From Candidatus Brocadia sp. (lineage in GTDB: Bacteria; Planctomycetota; Brocadiia; Brocadiales; Brocadiaceae), in assembly GCA_011525665.1 (NCBI GenBank), contig WYAU01000007.1, forward strand, positions 1 to 64,000: a stretch of 64,000 bases of DNA, read 5' to 3'. A model generated the notes under the pieces. The model searched no databases, was not told the origin of the DNA, and saw only the letters and a program-made list of their open reading frames with translations. Shown in pieces: positions 2-47,853 of this stretch. Positions within the stretch are counted from its first letter, which is position 1; each line of letters starts with the position of its first letter. A program made the translations under genes and the position numbers.

Positions 2-126
2 GTGCCGCAGGGCGGTATCATATCGCCGTTGCTGTCGAACCTTTACCTCAACGAAGTGGATGAGATGATGGAGCGGGCAGGAGAAGTAACCCGCCGCAAC
101 GGATACTACAATCTTGAATTTATCCG
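2..126 (+). pseudogene. Group II intron reverse transcriptase fragment
   Basis: Frame 2 opens at the window edge with PQGGIISPLLSNLYLNEVD, the RT motif-4 region of group II intron-encoded reverse transcriptase/maturases. The catalytic YADD box expected some 20 residues later is absent: similarity stops around NGYYNLEFIR and the frame ends at base 169. This is therefore a 3'-truncated relic whose 5' part lies outside the window. It abuts the remains of a secreted-protein gene, so an intron insertion followed by deletion may have destroyed that gene's 5' end. The family call is firm from the motif; the history is inferred. Confidence 0.75.
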
Positions 127-521
127 GTCTACGACCAGATGGACAAACGGGGAAAACTGCGGGAAGTGATGGCAAAGATATTGCTAAACAGGCAAACGGG
201 AGTACAGCAATAACCCTACTTTACTTCGAAGCGAAGGCAGATACCAGTGGTAATGTTGTCCTGACGTGGGAAACGGCCACCAAGATCGATAACGCTGGTT
301 TCAATATCTACCGCGCCAGGAGGAGCGAGGACGGTACTTACAAAAAGATCAACGATACCCTCATCCCTGCCCAGGGCAATGCCACTTCCGGGGCTAGTTA
401 CAGCTATGTAGACACACCGCCAGCAAAAGGCACGTATTATTACAAGCTTGAGGACATAGACTACAACGGCGTAAGCACGATGCACGGTCCCGGAAAAGGT
501 GAGGGTGAAGTCGGGGAATAA
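114..521 (+). pseudogene. Orphan C-terminal Fn3-like module of a secreted protein
   Basis: From about base 198 this frame encodes the same ~95-residue module that ends four proteins on the other strand: an AITLxYFxAK opening, VxLTWETATKIDNAGFNIYRA, INDTLIPAQGNATSGASYSY, and LEDIDYNGVSTMHGP at the end. No signal peptide or N-terminal domain precedes it, and the first ~28 residues read through the junction with the reverse-transcriptase relic. I read it as the 3' remnant of a larger gene, perhaps untranslated. It is still followed by a 40-residue peptide gene in the same spacing seen at the intact copies, which suggests that module and peptide were duplicated or moved together. Confidence 0.7.
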
Positions 522-715: not shown

Positions 716-838
716 ATGGAAGGTGAAAAATCATCCGCCTACGAAGCGCCAGAAGTGATTACCTACACCGACGAAGAGATATTTGAGAAGCTGGGTCCTG
801 CACACACCGGTTCTCTCAGAGCGGACAGTACCTTCTAA
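716..838 (+). CDS. 40-residue YxxP peptide, copy 1 (putative RiPP-like precursor)
   Basis: A 40-codon gene with a strong AAAGGAGG ribosome-binding site 7 bases before ATG. The product starts MEGEKSSAYEAPEVI, continues TYTDEEIFEKLGPAHTGSL and ends RADSTF. Two further copies (11629-11751 and 14328-14450) are near-identical from Tyr9 to Leu34 and differ mainly in residues 3-8 and the last six. There is no signal peptide, membrane segment or cysteine. The YxxPxV motif resembles the leader motif bound by PqqD-like recognition elements in lasso-peptide precursors (YxxPxL; established for that family), and a PqqD-like gene lies in the same locus. Precursor or tag function is inferred. The gene faces the minus-strand nucleotidyltransferase gene, and the 186 bases between them hold nothing recognisable. 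Confidence 0.75.
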   Translation: MEGEKSSAYEAPEVITYTDEEIFEKLGPAHTGSLRADSTF

Positions 839-2824: not shown

Positions 2825-5800
2825 TTATTTCGTCTCTATGGTAAAAGGAGAATCCGATCTGTCCTTGCCTCCTTTTTTCCCGGACTCATCAAATCCTGTC
2901 ACCTCTATGAGACACTTTGTCCTGGTGTTTTTCGTGTTCGGTACGTCCCAATCGTAACTTGTATCTGTTACATTCTTTGCTATCTTTTTCCATGAACGCC
3001 CCTTGTTTAGGGAGTACCTGAGTTTGAATGTTACCATAGATTCCGGCGCTGTCCACTGCACGGTAAAAGTCGACCCGGCTGCTATGACTTCTCCTCCATT
3101 AGGAGCAAGCACTGACAAGGGAGATCCGGAATCGGCGGAGACACCTAATTCCGTCACGGGGTCGCCAAAGAGCACAAAGGTTTCAACCAACTCACCCCAA
3201 AAACTGTTTTGACTGTATGTAGCGATCTTGGCATCTGTTGTGGAGGCGCCCAGGCCGTACTGTTTATCCTGAAAAAGCGACTTGTAGAATTCACTCATCA
3301 GTATCTGATGGCCGGAGGTATAACTCAAGGCAGTGGGCGCCCAGACTGCTACCGCCCCTTTATCCTGAAGCCGCTGAAACTCTTCGGCAACAGAAACCTG
3401 TGGTTTTGTCCCCGTAAAGAAACCATTCAGGCAATCTGCTACGGTCACTACAGGAAACTTGTCGGTATTGTTTAACGATTTAATATCAGAAAGCCCCAGG
3501 ATTGAATCACCGCCATTCCACAGCCCCCACCTTTCCACGGACCCATGCCCGGTGTAGTTGACCAGAAGGCTTCCCTCATTGATATGCTTTATGATGTCTT
3601 TTGTGGGATCTCCCGATGTATATTTGCTTACGTAAACCTTGTTGGCCGTGTAGTCTTCAGGCAAAAGGCCGACAAGCTGCTCCGACATTTCTTCAAATGA
3701 AGAATCGTCATCATCTGCCACAAAGAGTGCATTTTTATTCCAGGAGTTTTTAGGCGGGTTTAGCTGATAGGAGATGATCTTGTCTACAATGTCATCCGCC
3801 TGTGACTTGCTGTCTGTGCTGAGCCGGCCGATAAACATATCAGGCAGGATGTCATCGCCGCTCAAGAGGACAAACCAGTTGTCCGATGGCGTCTCTCCCA
3901 ATATGTCCGTTTCAATGAGCTGGGAGGGCACGTAGTTCACGGTGCCGGTGTTAAGATTGTCCTTGTAGTCCTGGCAAGCGTCTCCAATCAGCAAAACGTA
4001 CGTTGGCGCCGGAGCCGTCCAATTGTTGTAAGCATATAACAGAAAATCCCGTATGGCCTGCGGATGAAATATGCCGAAGGTAAACTCGTCGTAAATATCA
4101 TCAATCTTGGCCGTAGCAACCCTCAAACCCGAATCGCTCCGATGCTTGGCGAGCTTTTGAGCGGCAGTATAAAAATCCTCATGGGTAATGATGATACAGT
4201 CGGCCGCATTGCCGGTGGATTTCCAGGATGATGGTTGATCGACCTCAATGCCGGCGGGTGATTTACCCTGTGCCATTGTCTGCGCCAGGTATCGTGTTCC
4301 CGCCTGAGCGGTATCCTCAAATTGCAGCGTGTAGGCGCCCTCTTTGGCTAAAATATTTGTATTGATGACGAGACCTACGTTGGCAGGATCCGTCACGTCG
4401 AAAACCTCTATGTCGTCACTGCTAAAGCCGGCGACTTCAAATTGAAAAGCGCCGCCTGTTGGCGCGCTGAAGAGTAGTTCGTTATTCTCCGCCACATAGG
4501 TATCAAAATAGTCAATCTCTATCCAGTTTACAAAAACCTGATCCACCTTTGCCCCGGTATCCCCAACAGACTCCACGCGAACGATATTGACCCCTTCGTT
4601 CAGATAGGAATGGGGCACAGACACTTCATGATCGAAGATATTCATGCCGTCCCACAATTGATCATCTATCACAACGCTGTTAAGATAGATCTTTGTATGA
4701 TGATCAGGATTAGTCTGGGCATCGGTGCGTCCCTTCAATCTGACGCGCACCGTTGCTGTGCCGGCCGAAGACGAAATGTTTGTGAGGGCGAGGGAATAGT
4801 CTTCTGACGCAGGGGCGCTGAGCTTGTCTCCCCAAAACCAGTGGTCCTGCCCACTGCCGTTGGGAATGGTTTGCCAGTAATAGGTGTCTTCCTCTGCATG
4901 CAGTGTGGCAGGAAATTGGGTGGGCACAGCGGCGTTACTCGAGATGGCGCCATCGAGCATTTTCATTCGTTGGCCATTGCCTTCATCCATCGTTAGCCAG
5001 TATATATTTTTCGTTGTATACGTATCGTTTGTGGCGGTACCATAAAAGAGGATATAATCTGTGGTATTGAATACGCCATCGTCCTCCCCGTGGACATAGA
5101 TGGGGATCCCGGCGCCCCGATTGCTGAGCTTAATCGCGCGGGGGTCTGTTGTGTTTAGATGGAATCCTGCATCAGCGAGATCATTGTATGTGAGTTTATA
5201 TATGCCGTCTTCCGTTACGCCGATCTTGAGGTTAGGAGTACTGCTGGTTGTAACGATATCTTTGGTCCTGATATCGTTGTGGGGCGGTACTTCCCTTCTA
5301 CCGGAAGGCCTCCCTAACGCATCATAGTTCAAAATCCTGCTTCTCAGCAGGTTCTCGTATGCAGGGCTGACGCCCGGCATCCGGGTAACGGCCCGTGACG
5401 GAAGATCACTCCAGGTGATTTTGGCAAGGATACGCCGGTAAAGACGCACTTCACCCGTAACAGGGTTATATTGCACCGGATAGAATTGTACCTGAGCTAC
5501 AGGCTGATCACGCATATATCCCGTGTAACCTATCTCAGCAGATGAACCGGGGTAAAAGGCGTTTGTGGCATAGATCTTATCATTAAGTCCAAAGGTTTGT
5601 TTGATGCCGTGCATGTTAGCCCAATTGTCTCCCGCCACTTTTAAGGCCGGCGCCGGATAGAGACGGTATCCGTTCATCGTTTCATAGCTGGCATCCAGGA
5701 CTTGCACGGAAACCCCTTCCGGGGAAGGCAGGCCTATCATCGCGCCACGCAGGGGAATTTGGGGTTCACCGGGCCTGGCGCTTTGCTCCATTTCGGGTAT

Positions 5801-6007
5801 GATTATTCTGTGATATACCTGTCCTTCATGTTCTATCGTTTCGGTCTGAAAGTCGCCGACCTTCAATTCAAGGACGACAGCCTGCCCGTCAGAACCAACT
5901 ACTTTCAGGTGATTTTCTGACGGCGACCCCGCCAGGAGAGGCGGGGAACCGTTTCCCAAAATCAGCAGGAAAACGAGAAGCATGTTTTTCTTAAGAATCT
6001 CAGCCAT
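2825..6007 (-). CDS. Secreted gingipain-like C25 cysteine peptidase
   Basis: A 1060-residue exported protein. The signal peptide is about residues 1-26 (KKNMLLVFLLILG core). A gingipain-type propeptide region follows (about 30-220, LPSPEGVSVQVLDASY), then a beta-rich region and the C25 catalytic domain (about 590-950) with LVNYTGHGS (His821) and VVTVADCLNGFF (Cys859), matching the family's His/Cys dyad. The last ~95 residues form an Ig-like domain (PNGGEVIAAGSTFTVQW) and not a type IX secretion C-terminal domain. ATG at 6007 has GAGGAGG 9 bases upstream; a TTG at 6016 lies too close to it. Its neighbours (HprK-like, S26 peptidase, NTase) make it a candidate processing enzyme for the surface proteins or peptides of this locus; that role is inferred. 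Confidence 0.88.
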   Translation of the reverse strand: MAEILKKNMLLVFLLILGNGSPPLLAGSPSENHLKVVGSDGQAVVLELKVGDFQTETIEHEGQVYHRIIIPEMEQSARPGEPQIPLRGAMIGLPSPEGVSVQVLDASYETMNGYRLYPAPALKVAGDNWANMHGIKQTFGLNDKIYATNAFYPGSSAEIGYTGYMRDQPVAQVQFYPVQYNPVTGEVRLYRRILAKITWSDLPSRAVTRMPGVSPAYENLLRSRILNYDALGRPSGRREVPPHNDIRTKDIVTTSSTPNLKIGVTEDGIYKLTYNDLADAGFHLNTTDPRAIKLSNRGAGIPIYVHGEDDGVFNTTDYILFYGTATNDTYTTKNIYWLTMDEGNGQRMKMLDGAISSNAAVPTQFPATLHAEEDTYYWQTIPNGSGQDHWFWGDKLSAPASEDYSLALTNISSSAGTATVRVRLKGRTDAQTNPDHHTKIYLNSVVIDDQLWDGMNIFDHEVSVPHSYLNEGVNIVRVESVGDTGAKVDQVFVNWIEIDYFDTYVAENNELLFSAPTGGAFQFEVAGFSSDDIEVFDVTDPANVGLVINTNILAKEGAYTLQFEDTAQAGTRYLAQTMAQGKSPAGIEVDQPSSWKSTGNAADCIIITHEDFYTAAQKLAKHRSDSGLRVATAKIDDIYDEFTFGIFHPQAIRDFLLYAYNNWTAPAPTYVLLIGDACQDYKDNLNTGTVNYVPSQLIETDILGETPSDNWFVLLSGDDILPDMFIGRLSTDSKSQADDIVDKIISYQLNPPKNSWNKNALFVADDDDSSFEEMSEQLVGLLPEDYTANKVYVSKYTSGDPTKDIIKHINEGSLLVNYTGHGSVERWGLWNGGDSILGLSDIKSLNNTDKFPVVTVADCLNGFFTGTKPQVSVAEEFQRLQDKGAVAVWAPTALSYTSGHQILMSEFYKSLFQDKQYGLGASTTDAKIATYSQNSFWGELVETFVLFGDPVTELGVSADSGSPLSVLAPNGGEVIAAGSTFTVQWTAPESMVTFKLRYSLNKGRSWKKIAKNVTDTSYDWDVPNTKNTRTKCLIEVTGFDESGKKGGKDRSDSPFTIETK

Positions 6008-6148
6008 AACAAACAACCTCCTCTCTCGGGTTTAATTTCATCACGAAATGCAAACGGAAAATTGCAAAATTGAGGAACTCATAGCAGTCTGTTTTTTTGA
6101 AAAAAATCCTTCACCGGCGCTTGAGAACGCGCATTTTTCACCAATTCC

Positions 6149-7315
6149 TTATACACTAACCAGATTACATACCAAATCGGCCATTTCATGCAGGGGGCCA
6201 ACGGAGAGCCGATGGCAGTCTGCCTGGCCCATAATGGCGGATAACTCCATAACCAGCCGTGCAGAACTGCCGCCAAACTCATCATGCAGGAGTTCAGACA
6301 TATATCCGCCCTGAAACCTGCTCAGCAGATCCATGACGGCCTGGCTCTTTGGAATCGGTTTGAGTCTGGCGGGTCTTTCAAACGTAGGACGCGCCCTTGC
6401 GCCTTTGATGACGTCCAGCACTAATATCCGGCGCTCCCTGCACAATGCCTCTATCCGGGAAAGCACGAAACTCGGACGTACCGCGCGAAACCTGAGCGTC
6501 GGAAAACCGCAATCTGTCTCCACCCGGAGCCCGGTTACGCCCTCATTTTGACCAGCGGCGGCGAGGAGTGCGTCGTCCAGACGATCGACCATAACGCATA
6601 ACTCCTGCCCTGCATTGTCCTGTAACTCACCCTGCGCCTCTGCAGGATCTTGCAAGATAATAATGTGACGAATAGGCGCTGCCTCTCCCAGGCTGCCAGG
6701 TTTTATCTCCTCGATATCCAAAAGCAGCTTATCCATCCATGCCGAGGCTCTGCTGACCAGAGCCGGGAAGCCGGCGATTTCTAAGGTACCTCCGCGGATC
6801 CAGAGGCACCGGGGAAACGGATGCACACGATGATCATCCCGTCCCAGCGCCGCCATTTCATCCGAAAGGAACTTGAATCCCCGCCGTATAAGTTCTAAAA
6901 CAAGGGTCGTCTTGCCATGTCTGGTATCAGCGGTAATAATTATACCCCGATCTTTGCAAGAAACAACGCCGGCGTGAATCAACACGTGGGAGCGTACCTT
7001 CGTTGTTATGGTACTCAGGATGCTTTCATAGGCGTACCCTTCCAAAAACTCCTGATTGCTTACAGGCCAAACTTCCCCATTTAAAATAATAACCGGCTTA
7101 CCCTGGTGTTTATCAGAATTTGCTATCAATGTGAACTCGACTTGTGATCGCGCTGTTGACGGCGGTTTATCATTTTGGAATCGATGGTACATCCGGGCAA
7201 AAAGAGTGATAAAATTGACGGAATCCGATTTAATAATCGTATCCAGATCAAAAAAGCGCAGATTCAGTTGACGGGTAATCGAATCTTTTTCTTTGAACAT
7301 GGGATCCATAGGCAT
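6149..7315 (-). CDS. HPr-kinase-like protein (HprK-related kinase family)
   Basis: The 388-residue protein has the HprK-type P-loop: HAGVVSCKDRGIIITAD precedes TRHGKTT (residues 131-137), then FLSDEMAALG (149-158). His115 and the SDE acidic patch occur as in HPr-kinase relatives. It lacks the N-terminal domain of true HPr kinase and is not beside HPr or PTS genes. Relatives are found with PqqD-like proteins and nucleotidyltransferases, and one branch phosphorylates a lasso peptide (paeninodin-type kinases; established). Here it is the first gene of the run into C25, S26 and NTase, with a strong terminator hairpin 70 bases upstream, so it probably has its own promoter. No ribosome-binding site is clear; ATG codons at residues 1, 3 and 6 are all possible starts. 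Confidence 0.82.
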   Translation of the reverse strand: MPMDPMFKEKDSITRQLNLRFFDLDTIIKSDSVNFITLFARMYHRFQNDKPPSTARSQVEFTLIANSDKHQGKPVIILNGEVWPVSNQEFLEGYAYESILSTITTKVRSHVLIHAGVVSCKDRGIIITADTRHGKTTLVLELIRRGFKFLSDEMAALGRDDHRVHPFPRCLWIRGGTLEIAGFPALVSRASAWMDKLLLDIEEIKPGSLGEAAPIRHIIILQDPAEAQGELQDNAGQELCVMVDRLDDALLAAAGQNEGVTGLRVETDCGFPTLRFRAVRPSFVLSRIEALCRERRILVLDVIKGARARPTFERPARLKPIPKSQAVMDLLSRFQGGYMSELLHDEFGGSSARLVMELSAIMGQADCHRLSVGPLHEMADLVCNLVSV

Positions 7316-7607: not shown

Positions 7608-9485
7608 TTACTTACTATTATTGACAGGACCATGGAAGGTGCTCTGGCCGTTATAATCTATGTCCTCCAACGTGAAGTAAAACGTACCCTCGCCAGGGTT
7701 GTCCACAAATTTGTATCTGGCTCCGGAGACCGCATTCCCCCCGGCAGCAATGAGTGCATCATTGATCCTGGTATAATGCCCGTCCATCCTTTCTGCACGA
7801 TACAGATTGAAACCGGCGTTGTCTACTTCCGATGACGTTTCCCACGTAAGGATAACTTTACCGCGAGAACCTGTCCTGGCTTTGAAGGACTTGAGTCCGA
7901 TAGCGGTGGATTCCTTCTTTGTCTTCACGGTAAGATCGTAGAGAATTGGCGAAGTCACTCCTGATAGAATCTGCAATACTGTCTCAATTTGTAAGTATTG
8001 ACCGTCAGGTGTAGCAGTTAAAGGTACCCCATTGTCAGCCGTCTCCCAATCAGACCAAAGAGATTGATCTTTTGAGCATCTCACTTTAACAATAACCGAT
8101 GTGCCTGCAGGCTCATCAGATGTCCAGGAAATTGCGCCCCACGGTGTATCGGTGGCGCCACTGTCATAAACAACCGTCCAATTGCCTATTTTTGTGGTTA
8201 CCGACCTCGATACAATCCCGGTCATGTCGCTATAGGAGTAATGTCCTGCGCTCCCGACCAGTGCCTTTGACAAGTCAATTGTATTTGTATTCGGGTCTAT
8301 TCTTTTAATAAATTCATCGCCATTATTACAGACCCAAACTTTACCAGCCGTATCCACAGCTACGCCGGTGGGTACCGATCCGGCGGCAATACTTGCTTTG
8401 AAATTCCCGTCATTATCATAACGGAGCACTGTCCCATACGCAGAATTGGCTATCCAGAGGTCATTATCGTTTGTTAAGGCAACCCCCCGGGCCCCGTAGG
8501 TTTCAGATTTATACTGGGTCCACTCCTTTATACCTGTCAGAATATTGACCCTGGAAACACGACTCTCCGTCCACCCTGAAATAAAGAGACGATCGAGATA
8601 ATCCACCCCTACTCCGTAAACAAAGTGACCGATATTTATTGTGCTTATCGTAGGCGGGTCTGTTGAAGGATCAAGCTTTAAAATGTGGTTTTTGTCATGA
8701 CCAGAAGACCAGAGAACGCCATTTTTATCAATAACAGTTCCATAAGCAGAATGGCGCCATGGAGACACATCTACGGCTTTAAGAATTGCCCCACTTTCTC
8801 CATCGATATAATAATATTTCTGTGAACTATAGGTACCAGCCCAGAGATTATTATGCGCATCGATGGCAAATCCCCTCGGAGCCGTACCCCAGTAGTTGGT
8901 GTCATAGGGACCGGGATACTGACCTGGGGCAAAAGTGCCTTCCAGTCCGGGTATGAGTACAACTTCATAAAGGACACACTCGTCTTGACCCCACGGCAGA
9001 ATTTCCCCCCCTGTAATATTTCCGTCTCCATTTGTGTCCAGGGAAGTCTGAATGATACCATCTCCATTTCTATCTATCCACTGACCCGCTTCGTAGAGCC
9101 CCACTTTTACTACTGTTCCCGCCTGTCTGTTACCGACCCAGCAATTGCCCTTAAGATCTACTGTGGTTCTTGAAGGGCTGCAATTTGAAAAAGGCGCAAT
9201 CCGGTAGCGCCCTAATTCATTTCCCGTCTCAGTATCGACTTTAGAAATTGTCCCTTCATTGTTTGGCACCCAAATAAAAGGAAATGTTGCCGCTGTTTTA
9301 GAGAGTTGTAATTGATCATGCACCGTTTCATGCTCTACCCCAACAAGCGTTCCTTCATTGAACTCGGCGTCTGTGGTGTAAGTCTTCTGACTTGCTGCAG
9401 CGCGCCCGGAAAATGTCATTATCATTAAAGCGGCAACAGCTATTGAGCAAAAATCCAATTTCCCCCCTTTTCTTTTGATTTTCAC
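7608..9485 (-). CDS. Secreted NHL/Vgb-type beta-propeller with C-terminal Fn3-like module
   Basis: GTG at 9485 follows GGAGGAACAA and gives a signal peptide (basic start, then FCSIAVAALMIMTFSG, cut near AAAS). The body (about residues 50-420) consists of propeller repeats such as GFAIDAHNNLWAGTY, GVAVDTAGKVWVCNNGDEF and DNDLWIANSAYGTVLRYD, typical of NHL or virginiamycin-B-lyase-like propellers. An EF-hand-like insert (DRNGDGII, DTNGDGNITGGE) probably binds calcium. A beta-sandwich segment follows, and the last ~97 residues are the shared module (AIGLKSFKARTGSRGKVIL to LEDIDYNGQSTFHGP). It is likely a surface or matrix protein without an obvious catalytic site. Unlike its paralogues it has no 40-residue peptide gene and no riboswitch nearby. 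Confidence 0.85.
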   Translation of the reverse strand: MKIKRKGGKLDFCSIAVAALMIMTFSGRAAASQKTYTTDAEFNEGTLVGVEHETVHDQLQLSKTAATFPFIWVPNNEGTISKVDTETGNELGRYRIAPFSNCSPSRTTVDLKGNCWVGNRQAGTVVKVGLYEAGQWIDRNGDGIIQTSLDTNGDGNITGGEILPWGQDECVLYEVVLIPGLEGTFAPGQYPGPYDTNYWGTAPRGFAIDAHNNLWAGTYSSQKYYYIDGESGAILKAVDVSPWRHSAYGTVIDKNGVLWSSGHDKNHILKLDPSTDPPTISTINIGHFVYGVGVDYLDRLFISGWTESRVSRVNILTGIKEWTQYKSETYGARGVALTNDNDLWIANSAYGTVLRYDNDGNFKASIAAGSVPTGVAVDTAGKVWVCNNGDEFIKRIDPNTNTIDLSKALVGSAGHYSYSDMTGIVSRSVTTKIGNWTVVYDSGATDTPWGAISWTSDEPAGTSVIVKVRCSKDQSLWSDWETADNGVPLTATPDGQYLQIETVLQILSGVTSPILYDLTVKTKKESTAIGLKSFKARTGSRGKVILTWETSSEVDNAGFNLYRAERMDGHYTRINDALIAAGGNAVSGARYKFVDNPGEGTFYFTLEDIDYNGQSTFHGPVNNSK

Positions 9486-9564
9486 TTGTTCCTCCTCCCT
9501 TTCCCTTTTACTTTTTAAAATTGTGTACAAAATATAAAACATGTAACCGTTATATTTAAATTAT

Positions 9565-11628: not shown

Positions 11629-11751
11629 TTAAAATGTGTTGTCGGCCTTAAGAGAACCTGTGTGTGCAGGCCCCAGCCTCTCAAATATCTCCTCATCTGT
11701 GTAAGTAATCACTTCTGGCGCCTCATACACGGGCAATTTCGCGTCTTCCAT
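11629..11751 (-). CDS. 40-residue YxxP peptide, copy 2 (putative RiPP-like precursor)
   Basis: ATG at 11751 is preceded by AAAGGAGTTATACA. The product begins MEDAKLPVYEAPEVI, continues TYTDEEIFERLGPAHTGSL and ends KADNTF. A longer open frame upstream to 11913 exists, but it crosses the repeat-rich spacer and has no matching start signals, and the other copies begin at the equivalent Met. The gene lies 181 bases after the stop of the Ig/MopE-motif protein on the same strand and may share its sigma54/riboswitch-controlled transcript. The last six residues are the most variable part, which could be a core region or simply an unconstrained tail. Confidence 0.75.
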   Translation of the reverse strand: MEDAKLPVYEAPEVITYTDEEIFERLGPAHTGSLKADNTF

Positions 11752-11932: not shown

Positions 11933-13573
11933 TTATTTCCGTATCTGCCTTTTTAACTTCTTTATTCTAACATCATCCGACCTTACCCTCACCTTTTCAG
12001 GACCATGCATGGTGCTAACACCGGTCTCGTCCACGTCTTCCAGCTTGTAATAGAAAGTACCTTTGCCCGGTGTATCCTCATAGCTGTAGCTAGCACCAGA
12101 TACGGCATTCCCCTGAGCAGGGATGAGCGTATCATTAATCTTTATATAAGAGCCGTTGTTGAGTCTTGCCCGATAAAGATTGAAACCGGCATTGTTGACC
12201 TCCGTAGCCGTCTCCCAGGTGAGGGTAACGCCACCCTTATCATTTGCCCCGCCAGTAAAAGAAATCAGGCTAATGGCGGTAGTTTTGCAGCCGGGATCGT
12301 CAGTGCAATCCGGATCGTCACAGTCTACAAGCCCGTCACCGTCATCATCTATTCCGTTCGTGCATTCCTCCAGAAACACCTGTGCAGTGATTGAGCAAAG
12401 CGACTGCTGACCGCTGTTATCTGTGGCACTAAAGGTCATAACGTATACACCCGCTTCCCCGGCGGTAGGCGTCCAGGAGAAGACGCTGGCGACAGGATTG
12501 CCGCTGGTTGGCAAAGAAGGCGTCATCGTAGCGCTTGGCGGCAGACCGCCCACATTCAGCTCAACGGTGTCGCCCGTATCAGTATCCGATGCCTGGACGG
12601 TAAAGGTCATTGTGCTTCCTATGTTGCCCGTAAGGGTTGTTCCGCATGCAGGTGTCGGCGGATGGTCAAATTCCGGAACTGCGCCAACCATAGGGACAAG
12701 TTGAATGAGGAAGTCTACCGCGCTCTTTCCCTTTACATTGCCCAGGTCATCGAGTTCTTCAATTGTGACCTGTGTAGAATAGAGGGTATTATGGCCGGCT
12801 AAGGCTAATGTTGCACCTGTTGTATCCCAGCTATAGGTACCCGTGCTACTTATACTAGCGCTATCGGAAGTTGACGCCGGCTGTATGAAACCTGAACCTG
12901 CCTCAGACGATGTAGAGAGACGAAAGTTAAGTGTATCTCCATCCGTATCGGCCCCGGGGACGATGAAGGTGCATAGGCCGTTCTGCGGACACAACACAAT
13001 AGGCGGCAGGGCGCTCACCGGTGAGCTATTTCCCGTGCCAACATGAACAACCGTCTCCACTCGATAGCTCCTATCAGGATTGTTGATATGTTCATTCACA
13101 CCGGAAAAACGGGAGATACGGCAACAACTGCCAACAAAGGCAGTGTAATTTCCCGCTGCGGCGTACGTATGGCTGATCGTGGTCTTGGAGGAACTGCCGG
13201 GCTGCAATGCCCGCGCAAATAGCCAGTTGTTGGCAGGGTCAATGGATGTCACTTTAAACTGCAAAGTACCCGTGGACATCCCATCACCGAAATTGAGCCC
13301 TGTAGCGCCAACAGTCTCTGTAATAATGTCCCCAACGGCTGGCCTACCATCTCCTGCGCTACCAAGATATCCATCCCTCCTGAATGCCCCATCCAGGGTA
13401 AACTCTATCTCGTTTGTACCGGCACCTGGCTTCCACGAGACATGCCCATACCTGAAGTGGCTTGCGTAGGCAGACTGTTCACTGAAACACAAAAAATTCA
13501 GCTTTAAAACCACGAGCGTTAAGATGAAGATGCCCATCTTAACGACCGATCTTGTCAGCAATTCACCTTTCAT
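11933..13573 (-). CDS. Secreted Ig/cadherin-like protein with MopE motif and C-terminal Fn3-like module
   Basis: ATG at 13573 lies 10 bases after GAGGAGG and gives a 546-residue exported protein (signal peptide about 1-36, ending near SAYA). Domains: an N-terminal beta region with a Cys pair (SCCRIS), an Ig/cadherin-like segment (PIVLCPQNGLCTF, GTYSWDTTGATL), a second Ig-like repeat (TFTVQASDTDTGDTVELN), the Asp-rich MopE putative metal-binding motif (CTNGIDDDGDGLVDCDDPDC), and the shared module (AISLISFTGGAND to VDETGVSTMHGPEK). A basic tail rich in Lys/Arg ends the chain. Expression is probably under a sigma54 promoter (14006-14021) and a c-di-GMP riboswitch (13831-13968). It is likely an adhesive or matrix protein; no enzyme motif is seen. 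Confidence 0.85.
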   Translation of the reverse strand: MKGELLTRSVVKMGIFILTLVVLKLNFLCFSEQSAYASHFRYGHVSWKPGAGTNEIEFTLDGAFRRDGYLGSAGDGRPAVGDIITETVGATGLNFGDGMSTGTLQFKVTSIDPANNWLFARALQPGSSSKTTISHTYAAAGNYTAFVGSCCRISRFSGVNEHINNPDRSYRVETVVHVGTGNSSPVSALPPIVLCPQNGLCTFIVPGADTDGDTLNFRLSTSSEAGSGFIQPASTSDSASISSTGTYSWDTTGATLALAGHNTLYSTQVTIEELDDLGNVKGKSAVDFLIQLVPMVGAVPEFDHPPTPACGTTLTGNIGSTMTFTVQASDTDTGDTVELNVGGLPPSATMTPSLPTSGNPVASVFSWTPTAGEAGVYVMTFSATDNSGQQSLCSITAQVFLEECTNGIDDDGDGLVDCDDPDCTDDPGCKTTAISLISFTGGANDKGGVTLTWETATEVNNAGFNLYRARLNNGSYIKINDTLIPAQGNAVSGASYSYEDTPGKGTFYYKLEDVDETGVSTMHGPEKVRVRSDDVRIKKLKRQIRK

Positions 13574-13830
13574 AAATATCAATCCTCCTCTCAATATTAC
13601 GCTAATTCCCCTTCTAACTATAGGGTAAAATACTCAATGCCATTACGTTTTCAACCCTGCAGGATCCTCCATGCCAGCAGGTTAAAAAATGCCAGAAATT
13701 CCCGGTAAGAAACAGAACGGCAGAGCAGAAATGTTTATTCCTCATCCCTCGCCCCTTTCACCGAAACAAGTAATCTCCCGGTCCTTTATTTAGCTTTGCT
13801 CAGAATGCTTTCTGTTAAATCACTAAAAAC

Positions 13831-13968
13831 AAAAAAGCCTTACCGCAAAGATGTTTTTTTAAACATCTTCGGCAGTAAGGCTGTCTTTTCATAATAGAGC
13901 CGTTTAAACGGCTTAGCAAGACCCTTTACTTTGCGCCCCCTGATTGCTCAGGGTTTACCTTTGTCGTG
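13831..13968 (-). ncRNA. c-di-GMP-I (GEMM) riboswitch A with terminator
   Basis: Minus-strand order: ACAAAGGTAAACC, then stem CTGA-GCAA-TCAG with a GNRA tetraloop, GGGGCGCAAAGTAAAGGG, a variable hairpin (GCCGTTTAAACGGC), AAGACAGCC and TACTGCCGAAG. These are the conserved GEMM-I blocks in order. The last blocks overlap one arm of a long hairpin (GCCTTACTGCCGAAGATG with CATCTTTGCGGTAAGGC) followed by TTTTTT, so ligand binding and termination are mutually exclusive as in known GEMM switches. It lies in the leader of the Ig/MopE-motif gene, 258 bases before its ATG. The ON/OFF direction cannot be read with certainty; overlap of aptamer and terminator suggests that ligand favours read-through. Confidence 0.9.
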
Positions 13969-14005
13969 ATGTGTTTTATTGTTTAAACTCGATCGCTAGA
14001 TTTTG

Positions 14006-14021
14006 AGCAATACAGATGCCA
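14006..14021 (-). promoter_or_regulatory. Sigma54 (-24/-12) promoter
   Basis: The minus strand reads TGGCATCTGTATTGCT: GG and GC at the invariant 10-base separation, five of six matches in the -24 block and a full TTGCT -12 block. The predicted transcript start is near 13994, just upstream of riboswitch A, and palindromic enhancer-like sites lie about 125-185 bases further upstream. Confidence 0.75.
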
Positions 14022-14142
14022 GGATGCCGATAAACAAAAAGAAAGGGGAATGGTTTTGCTGCAAATCCTTGTCTATCCTGAGATTATAATCAGTAAATAT
14101 AAGGATAAATGACAACGGATGTATTCAAACTAAAGAGGTAAA

Positions 14143-14193
14143 AAGCGTGTCATGGCACACAAGTGTGACGGCACACAAGTGTGACATGGCGCG
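14143..14193. promoter_or_regulatory. Array of three palindromic operators (GTGnCATGnCAC type)
   Basis: Three head-to-tail units: AAGCGTGTCATGGCACAC, AAGTGTGACGGCACAC and AAGTGTGACATGGCGCG. Each is a near-palindrome centred on CATG, with the centre shortened in unit 2. Position upstream of a sigma54 promoter fits an upstream activating sequence for an NtrC-family activator. The same core recurs at 58881-58919. Confidence 0.65.
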
Positions 14194-14279
14194 TTTTATC
14201 ATAAAAAAGATTAGAATGTCGGCGGGGGATAATACAAAGGAATGTTTATGGGCGGGTATTGTCATGGCTTAAGGAGACA

Positions 14280-14302
14280 GCCGTGCGGTAAAACCGCACG
14301 GC
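14280..14302 (-). terminator. Hairpin after the copy-3 peptide gene
   Basis: GCCGTGCGGT and ACCGCACGGC form a perfect 10-bp stem with a 3-base loop, 25 bases beyond the peptide stop on the minus strand. No T tract follows; it may protect the 3' end of the message or terminate inefficiently. Confidence 0.5.
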
Positions 14303-14327
14303 CACTCCCTTTCAATACAAAGACCTT

Positions 14328-14450
14328 TTAAAATACACTATTGCCCCTCAGGGAACCTGTGTGTGCAGGTCCCAGCTTTTCAAATATCTCTTCGTCAGTG
14401 TACGTAATCACTTCCGGCGTCTCATACTCTGGCAATTTTCTGTCTTCCAT
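14328..14450 (-). CDS. 40-residue YxxP peptide, copy 3 (putative RiPP-like precursor)
   Basis: ATG at 14450 follows AAAGGAGACACACA. The product begins MEDRKLPEYETPEVI, continues TYTDEEIFEKLGPAHTGSL and ends RGNSVF. It starts 138 bases after the stop of the propeller/Big_1 protein on the same strand and is closed by the hairpin at 14280-14302. Three separate copies keeping the 26 residues from Tyr9 to Leu34 almost unchanged, with only Ala/Thr and Lys/Arg swaps, argue for a real, selected product and against chance open frames. Confidence 0.75.
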   Translation of the reverse strand: MEDRKLPEYETPEVITYTDEEIFEKLGPAHTGSLRGNSVF

Positions 14451-14588
14451 TGTGTGTCTCCTTTCCCGATAAAAAAATTTACCTTTTATCCATTCAGTAT
14501 TCACCAGTCAGCTTAAGCCACCAGTTAACCGCTGTGAGCGGACTGTTCACCCTTTTTGTTTTTGCTACACGTTCCTTAAAAAACGCGC

Positions 14589-16211
14589 CTAATCCTCTCG
14601 TCCATTATTAATCGGCGATGCAGGAGTAACAGCGCTCGTTTCGGCCTCTTGCCTTGATGTCCGTTTAATCTTTAGATTCACGCCGTTATTAATAGGGCCA
14701 TGGAAGGTGCTCTGCCCGTTGTAGTCTATATCCTCCAGTGTATAGTAGAACGTTCCGTTACCGGGATTGTCCACAAATTTGTATCTCGCCCCGGAGACCG
14801 AGGTGCCTTTTGCATCGATGAGCGTGTTGTTGATTTTGACGTATTCCCCTTTCGCGCTCCCGGCACGGTAAAGGTTGAATCCGGCATTGTCCACTTCTGT
14901 CACCGTCTCCCACGTCAGAATAACCTTGCCATGTGAACCTGTCCGGGCCTTGAAGGATTTAAGTTCGATGGCGGTGGCCTCTTCCCACGTCTTCGCAACC
15001 TGATTTGATTTTATGGTTTCACCGTCGTCATTCACAAAGCTTGCCTCGATAACGTCGGTGCCGGTTGTACTCCCTGTGCCCGTGTAGGTGAAAGTTGCTT
15101 GTCCACTTGCATCCGTTGTATCGTTACCAGTCACTCCAGCATGCGGACCGGAGACAACGGTAAAGGTCACAACAACGCCCGCAAGGGGATTACCATCGCC
15201 ATCCTGCACCCTTGCGGTAACGGTATGATCTGTGCCTAAAGGATTGGTGTCAGAGAGGGGGGTCAATTGAATACTTTCCCCTTTTGCCACGGTGATCTCA
15301 CCGGCAACGCAAATGCCGAAGAGGGTGCTGCCTCCCGTTCCGGTGTTGATTGGCCCAACCTCGATTGCGCCTGTTGCAATATTAAACCTATAAAAATTAC
15401 TGCTACAGAAATCGCCGCTCCAGAACGATGTGCCATTGGGATCCAGATTTAAGGCAAACCAACAGTTCTCTCCGGGAGCATCGTATGTTTGTATCACATT
15501 TCCCGCTCCATCTAATCGTCTAATATCTCCTGTGACCGCGACAAGAAGCCCCCCGCTTCCATCGCCTGGCGGGAGCAGTCGAAGGGCAAAACACGGCGAT
15601 GCCCCAACATCAGCAAAATCGGCAAGTTGCATCTTGCTGGCCACATCGTAGCGTTTCACGCGCCTCCCCTCTGACGTGTAGAACATCGTCTGCTGATCGG
15701 AAGATAGGTCTATCCAGTCTGACCCCCGGCTTTCAGTCGCAACATCAAAAGTATCTAACAAATTCCCTGCTGCGTCATATTTATGGATATCTCTGTTGCC
15801 ATCGGCATTTCCCACGTAAAAATTTCCGGCCGCATCAAATAAAATAGATTCACTATGACCTCCCGGTGAAGTGGCATTCGTGTCAATGGTTTGAAGGATA
15901 GTGTGGGGATGCGCAACGTCGTGCACCACTACCTTCGTATTGGAAAAATTCGTTGTATAGAGTTTGTCAAGTGCATTGTTGAAGGCACACCCCGTTGTAA
16001 AGCCAGTCAGTCCGTCGGTAATCGTCTCCTTAAAAACCCCGTTGTTGTCATAGACCTTGTACGACCCGCTGCTAACACCGACAAATACGTCTCCTATCTG
16101 CCAGTCAGCAGCCTTAATGGGCGCCGGCGAACCGGCCATAAATATCAAAAGTCCCATCAAGGACGGCAACAGCCCTGCCATCCCCATCGCTCTCCATTTA
16201 ACCCTTTTCAT
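14589..16211 (-). CDS. Secreted propeller protein with Big_1 Ig domain and C-terminal Fn3-like module
   Basis: ATG follows AAGGAGGTTAAAA; the signal peptide spans about 1-35 (GLLPSLMGLLIFMAGS, ending PIKAAD). Residues about 36-300 form a propeller of SMP-30/NHL type (ESILFDAAGNFYVGNADGN, FWSGDFCSSNFYRFN). A bacterial Ig-like Big_1 domain follows (about 310-405; DGDGNPLAGVVVTFTVVSG, TDASGQATFTYTG), then the shared module (AIELKSFKARTGSHGKVIL to LEDIDYNGQSTFHGP) and a 35-residue charged tail. Big_1 domains are common in adhesins and surface proteins. The long leader (16212-16500) has hairpins but no GEMM signature. The copy-3 peptide gene is next downstream. Confidence 0.85.
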   Translation of the reverse strand: MKRVKWRAMGMAGLLPSLMGLLIFMAGSPAPIKAADWQIGDVFVGVSSGSYKVYDNNGVFKETITDGLTGFTTGCAFNNALDKLYTTNFSNTKVVVHDVAHPHTILQTIDTNATSPGGHSESILFDAAGNFYVGNADGNRDIHKYDAAGNLLDTFDVATESRGSDWIDLSSDQQTMFYTSEGRRVKRYDVASKMQLADFADVGASPCFALRLLPPGDGSGGLLVAVTGDIRRLDGAGNVIQTYDAPGENCWFALNLDPNGTSFWSGDFCSSNFYRFNIATGAIEVGPINTGTGGSTLFGICVAGEITVAKGESIQLTPLSDTNPLGTDHTVTARVQDGDGNPLAGVVVTFTVVSGPHAGVTGNDTTDASGQATFTYTGTGSTTGTDVIEASFVNDDGETIKSNQVAKTWEEATAIELKSFKARTGSHGKVILTWETVTEVDNAGFNLYRAGSAKGEYVKINNTLIDAKGTSVSGARYKFVDNPGNGTFYYTLEDIDYNGQSTFHGPINNGVNLKIKRTSRQEAETSAVTPASPINNGRED

Positions 16212-16561
16212 TTTTAACCTCCTTGTTTGGTAAAAACGTATTGATCTCCCCGTCCTTTTTCATCTAAATAAATTGCGAAAATTAGGCAAAGACACGGGCA
16301 TTGTTCTCTTTTTCCGTTTATAAGTTATCACCTCCTTTTTCACCTGCGATGAACACAGGTTGAATATTCCCGCTACTCCGCGTACATAAGGCGGGGACTC
16401 CTGCCCTTCCTGTCAGGCTTGTTTCATGTCCTTTGCCGTATACACACCGTCACAATAGTCCTTAAAAACCAAAAAGCCTTCTCTGTGTTGAATCCGCCAT
16501 GTCCCCCCCTGGCGGATGCGTAAGGGGGGGGAACAGTGACTTGCAACAATCCCTGCAGTTT
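16212..16561 (-). other. Long leader/intergenic region with several hairpins
   Basis: No gene. On the minus strand, a stem TCCCCCCC/GGGGGGGA (16502-16531) could end the upstream gene. Further on, CCCGC/GCGGG and ACCTG/CAGGT hairpins and a second Shine-Dalgarno-like AAGGAGGTGATAAC lie before the true ribosome-binding site at about 16220. None of the GEMM blocks is present. Confidence 0.4.
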
Positions 16562-16630
16562 TCATAACCCTTGTGAATCCACGCAGGCATAGGCAGACAT
16601 GATGAGTCCCAGCACCTCAAATCGCTCACC
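16562..16630 (-). pseudogene. Possible remnant of a fourth YxxP-type peptide gene
   Basis: Minus-strand frame: ERFEVLGLIMSAYACVDSQ, then GL and stop. EIFE(K)LG of the 40-residue peptides aligns with ERFEVLG here, but the N-terminal YxxP half is missing, an in-frame stop lies just upstream and there is no ribosome-binding site. It sits where a peptide gene would be expected, 43 bases after a gene ending in the shared module. Weak evidence; the match could be chance. Confidence 0.3.
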
Positions 16631-16672
16631 TTAATGCCTATACCCTCCCGATCCCGCTATTCGGCCTCTGGC

Positions 16673-17962
16673 TTACTTACGTTTCTGTCTCTTTGAATCC
16701 CTTCTTGTGGCATTATCTGACCGTACCCTCACCTTTTCCATCCCATGCATGGTGCTTACCCCATTGTAGTCTATGTCTTCCAGTTTATAATAGTAAGTGC
16801 CTTTGCGCGGTGTGTCCAGATAGCTGTAGGCGGCTCCGGATACGGCATTGCCCTTGGCAGGGATCAAGGTGTCATTGATCTTCTTGTATTCGCCATGCTC
16901 TGTCCTGGCGCGATAAAGGTTAAAGCCGGCGTTGTCGACCTCCGTAACTGTTTCCCATGCCAGGGTAACGCTTCCATTTTTGCCCACTTTGGCGGTGAAG
17001 TAAGCCAGGGTAATGGCAGTTGGTGTGCCCGTTGGCGAAGGTGTCGGCGTTGGTTGTGGTGTCGGGGTTATACAGGGTGTGCAATCCCCGGAAGAAATAC
17101 CTCTGTTGTTTTGATAATTTTCGAGCTCCTGGCACAGGTTCTTCACCTGTGCCGTCACAGTGCCGCCTATTGCCACCGTGTCAATGCAGTCGCAAATCTC
17201 GGCAAGGGTCTGTTTCTTTACGCCGACACCGTTCAGGTTTCCCAGCGGGAGGCCATTGATTTTCTCCTGCACCTGGCAATCGTCCGTGTCAATAATGAAC
17301 GATGGATTCCGTGGATTCTGCGGATCATCGAGTGTACCAAAGGCCTCTATGCGTTCGGAAAGCTGCGGTTCTCCCGCATTGGCTTTCATACCCGCGTCCC
17401 CGTGGCAAGCGTTACATCCCTTCGTACCGCGGGAGGTGGTGGTGCCAACGCTGATTACATTTTCAATGTTAGTATTTGTGCCTGGAGGTACCGGGACATC
17501 GGCCATTACCATCACCGTCCCGCTGCCAGTTTCTCCCACTACAACGCCGATTTCGACCCGATTACTGCCAATTACACCACCGGCCCCTGCGCTCCCTATG
17601 CCACACAACAGATATGATAGCTCCATTTGGGGAGGTCCGGGGCATTTCAGAATCACCCGCGGGAGTTGACAAGTGCCGGTGCCGTTGGCACCTCCAAAAA
17701 AGCAAGCCGCCTGTGCACTATCTTCGCTCATTGTGAGTGTTACCGTACAGCAATCCTCCAGACACTCTACGGTATCGGAAATATCAATTGCCCCCTTTGT
17801 TTTAATTTTGTCGTTTACGCAATCGATAAACTTCCCGATTGCCGCCACGCCTTTGTCTATGTCTTCCTGAGTCAGGGAGGCAGCGATTAAACTGGCTTTC
17901 AACGCCATCGATACGCCAACAACAGCAATGACAATCACGAGAATTCTGCTTTTTTTTCCCAT
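16673..17962 (-). CDS. Secreted Cys-rich protein with one CxxCH haem motif and C-terminal Fn3-like module
   Basis: ATG follows AAAGGAGGGGAAA; the signal peptide is about 1-29 (ILVIVIAVVGVSMALKASL, ending IAAS). The Cys-rich N-terminal half includes GCNACHGDAG (residues 182-191), a canonical haem-c attachment site CNACH, with Met192 nearby as a possible axial ligand. About 14 other Cys could form disulfides. A Pro/Thr linker of TPTPxP type (about 297-317) leads to the shared module (AITLAYFTAKVGKNGSVTL to LEDIDYNGVSTMHGM) and a Lys/Arg-rich tail ending RRDSKRQKRK. It may be a surface cytochrome or a redox-active matrix protein; no known cytochrome family is recognised. Riboswitch B precedes it, and the PqqD-like gene is next upstream. 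Confidence 0.82.
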   Translation of the reverse strand: MGKKSRILVIVIAVVGVSMALKASLIAASLTQEDIDKGVAAIGKFIDCVNDKIKTKGAIDISDTVECLEDCCTVTLTMSEDSAQAACFFGGANGTGTCQLPRVILKCPGPPQMELSYLLCGIGSAGAGGVIGSNRVEIGVVVGETGSGTVMVMADVPVPPGTNTNIENVISVGTTTSRGTKGCNACHGDAGMKANAGEPQLSERIEAFGTLDDPQNPRNPSFIIDTDDCQVQEKINGLPLGNLNGVGVKKQTLAEICDCIDTVAIGGTVTAQVKNLCQELENYQNNRGISSGDCTPCITPTPQPTPTPSPTGTPTAITLAYFTAKVGKNGSVTLAWETVTEVDNAGFNLYRARTEHGEYKKINDTLIPAKGNAVSGAAYSYLDTPRKGTYYYKLEDIDYNGVSTMHGMEKVRVRSDNATRRDSKRQKRK

Positions 17963-18065
17963 TTTCCCCTCCTTTCAGTCCAGTTAAGAAACACTACCCA
18001 TTTCTACCGCAAAATTTTTAACAGAGCGCTGCGTCCTTGTAGTCAGTTACCATTGCCTGATACAA

Positions 18066-18202
18066 CAAAAAAAGCCTTACTGCAAAGATATTCATACATA
18101 AACATCTTCGGCAGTAAGGCCATCTTTAACAATCTTAACTTCCTTGTTAAGATCCTTTACTTTGCGTCCCACGATCGCTCGTGGTTTGCCTTTATCGCGA
18201 TG
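18066..18202 (-). ncRNA. c-di-GMP-I (GEMM) riboswitch B with terminator
   Basis: Minus strand: GATAAAGGCAAACC, stem ACGA-GCGA-TCGT with a GNRA loop, GGGACGCAAAGTAAAGGATC, a variable hairpin (TCTTAAC/GTTAAGA), GATGGCC and TACTGCCGAAG. The 3' part forms a hairpin GCCTTACTGC/GCAGTAAGGC with AAGAT/ATCTT extension and a TTTTTTT tail. GGCAAACC and GACGCAAAG match the GEMM-I consensus exactly. It ends about 105 bases before the ATG of the haem-motif protein gene. Confidence 0.92.
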
Positions 18203-18370
18203 CGCTCTCTTATTTACAGGTAATGGTTATATTTCAATTCGAACGTTACCCCAAAGCCGGTTCACTGTTTTACTAAAAATATGTGCGTAAAAAAATATCA
18301 TGGCAAGGGGGAGGGCGGAGAAGCACGTTCTTAATATTTTAACAGCCTTTTGACAATTACAGCCTCTCCC

Positions 18371-18646
18371 TCAGGATGTCTTTTCCAGCACCCCTTTGCT
18401 TGCGAAGACCTCCAACGTTTTTTGAATATCCGCTGACACATCATGTTTGCTAACCACAGAAAATTTCGATCTGATCTCCTGCTCCATATCTTCTGCAGTA
18501 TGAACACCGTCGCACAGTTCCCAGATGAGTTTTGCAGTGGGATTGAGGACGTGGATTGCCTTTCCCCCGGCATTGTACAGCAAGGTCTCACGTCCGATGT
18601 CTTGCACAATAATCCCTTGTTTGCGGACGGGTTTCATTGTATTCAT
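18371..18646 (-). CDS. PqqD-like peptide-chaperone family protein
   Basis: A 91-residue protein with the PqqD/RRE layout: an N-terminal beta hairpin (RKQGIIVQDIGRETLLYN), AIHVLNPTAKLIWELCDG with the conserved LNxTAxxIWELCDG helix start, then a helical part (TAEDMEQEI, ADIQKTLEVFASKGVLE). PqqD-like domains bind leader peptides of RiPP precursors (established). The only peptide genes in sight carrying a plausible recognition motif are the three 40-residue YxxP genes in this locus. It has its own sigma70 promoter (18945-18973) and riboswitch C, so c-di-GMP probably controls it. No clear ribosome-binding site; start at residue 1 or Met4. Confidence 0.85.
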   Translation of the reverse strand: MNTMKPVRKQGIIVQDIGRETLLYNAGGKAIHVLNPTAKLIWELCDGVHTAEDMEQEIRSKFSVVSKHDVSADIQKTLEVFASKGVLEKTS

Positions 18647-18732
18647 AAATTATTTTTGAAATTTTACTTTAACCCTTGATATTCATGCAAGTTAAGGATT
18701 ATATGCTTATACAGTTTCCTGAAAAAGGCCAA

Positions 18733-18888
18733 ATAAAAAAGCCTTACTGCAAAAATGCTTATCAAAACATCTTCGGCAGTAAGGCTGTCTTTTCATAAAA
18801 CCGTTTAAGCCGTTTAAACTGTTTAAACGGCTTAGCAAGACCCTTTACTTTGCGCCCCCCGATTCCTCGAGGTTTGCCCTTGTCGTAT
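18733..18888 (-). ncRNA. c-di-GMP-I (GEMM) riboswitch C with terminator
   Basis: Minus strand: GACAAGGGCAAACC, stem TCGA-GGAA-TCGG with a GNRA loop, GGGCGCAAAGTAAAGGGTC, an extended variable arm built from CCGTTTAAAC repeats, AAGACAGCC and TACTGCCGAAG, then the anti-arm TTGCAGTAAGGC followed by TTTTTT. The element begins about 50 bases after the predicted transcript start and ends about 87 bases before the PqqD-like ORF. Elements A and C share long identical stretches, so they are recent duplicates of one another. Confidence 0.92.
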
Positions 18889-47307: not shown

Positions 47308-47314
47308 CGTTTAA

Positions 47315-47711
47315 GCAGACAATAAGCCGAGTCCTGTCGTGGACGGTCATTTATCTAGCCTCGCCGTTGCCGGCGAGATCAAACGGCTTACCCGGAGGTT
47401 CTTTCGAAGCGGACCACTTCATCCCTCCCTATTTAGCCTTTCTCCCAGTGGGGTTTGCCATGCCTCCGATGTCGCCACCGGAGCGGTGGGCTCTTACATT
47501 AAGTCGTTGAGTGCCCTGTGCGTTTCACAGGGAAGCGACCCCGCCATTTCACCCTTATCCCGCCAAAAGACGGGACGGTATATTTTCTGTTGCACTTTCC
47601 TTCCCGTCACCGGGACTCCGCGTTACGGAGCACTGTGTCCTGTGGAGCTCGGACTTTCCTCCCGTTCCTTCTCTGTTTGGATGAGTTGGAACCGGCGACC
47701 GCCTTGTCTGC
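47315..47711 (-). ncRNA. rnpB: RNase P RNA (class A)
   Basis: The minus strand begins GCAGACAAGGCGGTCGCCGG, has GAGGAAAGTCCGAGCTCC (CR-I/P4 strand), GAAAGTGCAACAGAAA, GGTAAGCC-type blocks, and ends TAGATAAATGACCG, then ACAGGACTCGGCTTATTG (CR-V with P4 partner). GCAGACAA and TTGTCTGC close helix P1. About 397 bases, the normal size. It is the catalytic RNA that matures tRNA 5' ends. Placed after the zinc-ribbon/rpoD/dnaG genes on the same strand. Confidence 0.95.
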
Positions 47712-47853
47712 TTTAACGTACAGAAAATTCACAATTTTTGGAGAGACAACTTCTATTGGCGACGAGGCTATACACGCCGTTGTGCATAGCCGGTTCGCCG
47801 TCAGGAGACGGTTCTCCCGATGATGCATTTAACCTTCAGTCAAGCCGGGGAAT

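Follow-up and report, generated by a model that had tools for sequence, protein, structure and literature searches.

Predicted c-di-GMP-I riboswitches in the leaders of a PqqD-like gene and secreted-protein genes of Candidatus Brocadia sp.

Riboswitches and genes at the PqqD-like locus

A 64-kb stretch of the genome of Candidatus Brocadia sp. (contig WYAU01000007.1, positions 1 to 64,000, referred to as the window) harbors a locus encoding a PqqD-like peptide chaperone, secreted proteins and short peptides, three leaders of which carry elements related to riboswitches for cyclic di-GMP (c-di-GMP). The whole window was scanned by cmscan against all Rfam families, and exactly three matches of the c-di-GMP-I clan were found, all on the minus strand. 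The aptamer of element E3 (18771-18887, GGAA tetraloop), located in the leader of the PqqD-like gene, scored 60.5 bits with RF03167 (c-di-GMP-I-GGC; E 8.4e-12) and 59.5 bits with RF01051 (c-di-GMP-I). E2 (18106-18199, GCGA tetraloop) precedes the gene of a secreted protein of 429 amino acids and scored 66.2 (E 2e-13) and 65.4 bits, respectively, while E1 (13867-13968, GCAA tetraloop), in the leader of a secreted protein of 553 amino acids, reached 66.1 (E 2.1e-13) and 59.8 bits. The cut-offs of the two families are 59 bits for RF03167 and 35 bits for RF01051. These results bear out the initial annotation, which had placed three GEMM-I-type elements with three different GNRA loops at 13831-13968, 18066-18202 and 18733-18888: these intervals comprise the aptamers plus their terminators, and the Rfam covariance search put all three far above the RF01051 cut-off. 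A fourth element was not found between 9500 and 20500 in a permissive scan (E up to 1), including the region upstream of the gene at 14589-16211. With 35 copies per 3.63 Mb, 0.049 copies would be expected in 5 kb, which makes the three found here unusual (P ~2e-5 per interval, ~0.013 over all intervals). The Rfam scan also identified a bacterial class A RNase P RNA (47308-47714, minus strand, 283 bits).

The three genes behind the switches, a PqqD-like gene and two secreted-protein genes as previously annotated, are located on the minus strand. The PqqD-like protein (18371-18646, 91 amino acids) matched PF05402 with 43.9 bits (E 2.9e-11, cut-off 23.4); its best NCBIfam relative is TIGR04248 (ScmD), below the cut-off. 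The 429-amino-acid protein (16673-17962) contains one CxxCH motif and a C-terminal domain (CTD) similar to Fn3, and had no match in Pfam. The 553-amino-acid protein (11933-13594) contains SIBA-E_N and Ig-like domains and the same CTD; its length was counted from TTG at 13594, and ATG at 13573, with a good Shine-Dalgarno sequence, is the likelier start. Secretion was judged by eye from hydrophobic N-termini. The CTD, a domain of approximately 100 residues for which AlphaFold2 gave a pLDDT (predicted local distance difference test) of 90.9 and which resembles Fn3 domains, is common to both proteins and three more gene products of the window. It is found in a secreted protein of 540 amino acids (14589-16211, minus strand), which also carries Big_1 (PF02369) and has no switch of its own, in a beta-propeller-like secreted protein of 644 amino acids (7608-9542, minus strand) and in the product of a gene at 90-521 on the plus strand. 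A fragment similar to group II intron reverse transcriptases (2-169, plus strand, recognized by eye) adjoins a truncated CTD gene.

Directly 3' of CTD genes, three near-identical peptides of 40 amino acids are encoded, a pairing that is repeated in other Brocadia genomes. These are MEDRKLPEYETPEVITYTDEEIFEKLGPAHTGSLRGNSVF (14328-14450, minus strand), MEDAKLPVYEAPEVITYTDEEIFERLGPAHTGSLKADNTF (11629-11751, minus strand) and a third LGPA peptide (716-838, plus strand), just 3' of the CTD gene at 90-521. All are close to MEDxKLPxYExPEVITYTDEEIFEKLGPAHTGSL, with the segment YExPEVITYTDEEIFEKLGPAHTG in common, and none had a match in Pfam or NCBIfam. Further genes of the cluster, all on the minus strand, encode an HPr-kinase-like protein (6149-7315; TIGR04352 HprK_rel_A, E 3.9e-14, below the cut-off), a C25 peptidase of the gingipain/PorU type (2825-6016; PF01364, E 1.9e-92; NF033707, E 2.5e-93, below the cut-off), an S24/S26 signal-peptidase-like protein (2111-2794) and an NTP_transf_5 nucleotidyltransferase (1025-2071; PF14907, E 1.5e-29). 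No radical SAM maturase was detected among the cluster genes of the window that were scanned. Judged from these matches, the locus is similar to those of ribosomally synthesized and post-translationally modified peptides (RiPPs), but it is RiPP-like rather than a named RiPP, since the curated cut-offs set for the named systems are not reached and the window showed no cyclase. The exopolysaccharide genes, which were thought to fit the same theme, are real as sugar-transferase and glycosyltransferase genes (24.7-28.2 kb), but they carry no switch, a two-component pair and a TPR gene intervene between them and E3, and they are linked to the locus by proximity only.

Recurrence, copy number and conservation

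The grouping of switches at the PqqD and secreted-protein locus, as claimed for the window, recurs in other Brocadia genomes. In G017 (L207), the order is switch, PqqD, switch, peptide, a 426-amino-acid ortholog, a 537-amino-acid ortholog, peptide, switch and CTD protein, with the ortholog of the 429-amino-acid protein at L207 5736-7016. G014 (L208) encodes switch, PqqD, switch, CTD protein, peptide, an ortholog of the HPr-kinase-like protein and a C25 peptidase. The order PqqD, switch, CTD protein is found in G021 (L209) and G019 (L095/L158, taken as the same locus), and switch, peptide, PqqD in G023 (L077). A gene for a SPASM radical SAM protein adjoins the G021 locus (L209 723-2174, minus strand; best model PapB, below the cut-off).

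The genome (3.63 Mb, 99.9% complete) contains 35 copies, a number absent from the initial annotation, as were the ON polarity discussed below and the pairing of short peptides with secreted proteins. Genomes of the same genus harbor 22 to 52 copies and those of other genera of the family 1 to 28. In a phylum sample, which was scored for up to 10 places per genome and is separate from the count that gave 22 to 52, genomes outside the order had at most five. The 5' block of type A, as the lineage-specific form of the element is called here, was searched as an exact pattern in 85,000 genomes and was found only in records labelled Brocadia, Jettenia, Scalindua and other Planctomycetota or Planctomycetes, among the 80 of 102 stretches listed. 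The copies precede genes on the same strand. Their products comprise regulatory proteins (PAS-GGDEF, a sigma-54 regulator), cytochromes (NapC/NirT, P460, c') and type IV pilin-like, matrixin, amidase, beta-helix, RCC1, Kelch, NHL and Big_5 proteins. This unusually large set of near-uniform copies could place a large part of the cell surface under a single signal. The genome encodes 20 GGDEF and nine EAL domains. One switch is located directly before a PAS-GGDEF gene (L071 4162-5374, G000:C60), an arrangement that would feed back on c-di-GMP. Another precedes an extracellular contractile injection operon (L205 1184-19001, G000:C15:16183-34000) with sheath, gp19 tube, T4 baseplate, Pvc16, AAA, eCIS_core and Baseplate_J parts. 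Two tandem pairs (L065 8996-9308 and 10675-11055, G000:C17) precede the genes of a Big_5/BNR protein and of a small secreted protein whose neighbor is PEP-CTERM-like.

Conservation is uneven along the element. Among 50 unique sequences of the P1b hairpin, pairing was found in 292 of 300 cells, compared to 256.7 ± 3.0 with shuffled 3' strands, and a GNRA loop was present on 49 of the 50 hairpins. P2 and the terminator are nearly invariant across the copies of the lineage, which could stem from the triple use of one strand (in aptamer P2, terminator and interhelical contact) or from recent duplication. The distal P2 loops carry GTTTAAAC palindromes (13888-13920 and 18790-18835 in the window, and many other copies); other copies have GGGGCGTATTGCAATACGCCCC or (ACA)GGGAAGTA hairpins at this place, as if repeat insertions were tolerated. 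With a 3' half and terminator almost unchanged over more than 100 copies, 22 to 52 copies per genome in the genus and palindromic sequences in the loops, the elements might be taken for a spreading cassette, i.e. a repeat or mobile element that is maintained through duplication and mostly devoid of regulatory effect. We regard this as improbable: the P1b stems vary with compensatory changes while their GNRA loops are kept, the copies precede same-strand genes whose products are unrelated, and the switch is retained at the PqqD locus across species.

Ligand class and predicted direction

Residues 20, 47 and 92 contact c-di-GMP in known aptamers (PMC4744006, PMC9049102), and G at position 20 selects c-di-GMP over cyclic GMP-AMP (cGAMP) (PMC6456294). 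G20, A47 and C92 are present in all three window elements, and A47 is kept in all genome copies that could be read. Among 135 matches extracted by a pattern scan from this and related genomes, G20 was found in 134, A47 in 134, C92 in 133 and C44 of the interhelical C44-G83 pair in 132 (the G was read by eye). One of the 135, located inside the window, probably fits the pattern by chance.

RF03167 is the top-scoring family at all three sites, each time above its cut-off, and the elements might therefore be true c-di-GMP-I-GGC riboswitches with an altered ligand. Weinberg et al., in PNAS in 2017, reportedly defined the GGC family as a variant that might recognize another signalling molecule, and "GGC" presumably names residues 20, 47 and 92. 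The alignment at position 47, however, sets the RF03167 consensus GACGCGAA against GACGCAAA in E2 and GGCGCAAA in E1 and E3: the G that replaces the intercalating A47 of Vc2 in the variant is absent from all three elements. Since RF01051 is also matched with 60 to 65 bits, far beyond its cut-off, the altered-ligand explanation is very unlikely, and acceptance of the RF03167 label at face value was rejected because residue 47 is A instead of G. As G20, A47 and C92 are kept and position 20 separates c-di-GMP from cGAMP, E1 to E3 are almost certainly c-di-GMP-I riboswitches, with the GGC label reflecting a near-tie between related models. The class given initially is thus upheld by the RF01051 scores and A47, even though the top Rfam label is the GGC variant instead of plain c-di-GMP-I. 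Automatic annotation would, via this label, call the elements of this lineage an orphan class although they are devoid of G47; a variant label in Rfam can misname standard c-di-GMP-I switches.

An overlapping T-tailed terminator had been claimed for each element, and whole-element folds indeed place the 3' strand of the aptamer inside the terminator stem in all three cases. In E3, the stem (18741-18785, minus strand) is followed by a U-run to 18735, and its 5' arm and the aptamer overlap at 18771-18785. The terminators of E2 (18067-18120, stem 18074-18120) and E1 (13831-13881, stem 13837-13881), also on the minus strand, end in a U-run as well. Minimum free energies were -57.4 (E3), -53.0 (E2) and -52.0 (E1), with z-scores of -6.3 to -6.7 versus mononucleotide shuffles. 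A stem with at least eight of ten pairs to GCCUUACUGC, followed by a T-run, was found in 111 of the 135 matches; the T-run usually starts 30 to 37 nucleotides beyond the 3' block of the aptamer. Nearly all of the 35 genome copies have the terminator, which takes approximately 19 aptamer nucleotides where the full stem was folded. The automatic fold ended at an earlier T-run in several copies, including E3, for which the full fold contains the complete terminator.

In the ligand-free RNA, the aptamer's 3' strand (GCCUUACUGCC) would pair with the downstream sequence GGCAGUAAGGC to form the U-tailed terminator. With c-di-GMP bound, this strand would be retained by the aptamer, the terminator blocked, and RNA polymerase would read through. 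Because the 3' strand of the aptamer itself serves as the 5' arm of the terminator, binding of the ligand and termination appear mutually exclusive, and each element is predicted to be a transcriptional ON switch. Both ON and OFF switches are known within the c-di-GMP-I class, and the direction proposed here is a prediction from anatomy; nevertheless, an OFF switch of the same class, with which c-di-GMP would silence the genes, is highly improbable, as the terminator shares its 5' arm with the aptamer in nearly all copies.

Interpretation and comparison with known systems

Taken as a whole, it is very likely that type-A c-di-GMP-I ON switches were amplified in Candidatus Brocadia and its relatives and control a RiPP-like surface-protein locus. 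Several results weigh against this explanation. The best-scoring family, RF03167, is the variant proposed to have another ligand, and its lead over RF01051 is 6 bits at E1 and small at E2 and E3. Promoter-like sites upstream are weak (e.g. 18973-18945); transcription from the upstream response-regulator gene may possibly read through into the E3 leader. PqqD orthologs outside the genus (Jettenia-like and in other genera) were found without a switch at the thresholds used. Finally, the terminator arms are too uniform for covariation, with only two double changes and a nearly equal pair count after shuffling.

The PqqD-like gene is located between E3 and E2, which form a series: a transcript starting before E3 would have to pass both gates. 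High c-di-GMP would then lead to more PqqD-like chaperone, Fn3-tailed secreted proteins and LGPA peptides, in addition to approximately 30 other targets. A more far-reaching proposal, doubtful in its entirety, is that c-di-GMP acts by serial antitermination to turn on a new peptide-maturation system during granulation, as part of a surface regulon of 35 to 52 switches that includes the contractile injection system, and that the PqqD-like chaperone and HprK-like kinase process the 40-amino-acid LGPA peptides encoded behind the Fn3-tailed proteins. The link between this locus and biofilm or granule state, drawn in the initial annotation, is likewise a hypothesis.

Granules and biofilms are the working form of anammox bacteria, whose decision to aggregate is poorly understood. 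In anammox granular sludge, c-di-GMP levels were correlated with the matrix (review PMC11224092). A literature search on c-di-GMP riboswitches and anammox returned nothing relevant, as judged by title and abstract. The riboswitch class itself is known; new are a regulon of this size and uniformity in an anammox genus and the RiPP-like surface-protein locus under it. From the 35 to 52 near-uniform switches per genome, direct c-di-GMP targets could be listed for organisms in which genetic manipulation is difficult, and this list could be tested in vitro and against available RNA-seq data. The pairing of short-peptide and secreted-protein genes is offered to RiPP research.

Lasso-peptide clusters are known to encode PqqD-like and HprK-like proteins and nucleotidyltransferases (PMC8498205). 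The locus resembles the HPr-rel-A, SynChlorMet (Scm) and lasso-peptide tailoring sets in that PqqD-like, HprK-like and NTP_transf_5 proteins are encoded near a short peptide gene, but differs from them in scores below the family cut-offs and the lack of a visible lasso cyclase in the window. With RF03167, their top-scoring family (60.5 to 66.2 bits), the elements share the 3' UGCCGAAG end, whereas position 47 is G in that consensus and A here. Fold, G20/A47/C92, interhelical C44, GNRA loop and scores (59.5 to 65.4 bits) are those of RF01051, from which the Brocadia elements deviate by a lineage-specific P2 (GUAAAGG / CCUUAC), the near-invariant terminator and a copy number above the 17 GEMM-I elements of G. 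sulfurreducens (PMC6456294). The GEMM-Ib regulon of Geobacter, which responds to cGAMP, is similar in its many copies, cytochrome and surface targets, tandem pairs and ligand-stabilized antitermination (predicted here). That the Brocadia elements sense cGAMP like those of Geobacter, in line with the common scaffold and the cytochromes among the targets, is extremely improbable, since position 20 is G in nearly all matches and an exchange of A to G at this position converts a Geobacter switch from cGAMP to c-di-GMP (PMC6456294). The Geobacter elements carry A at this position, belong to another clade and control other targets.

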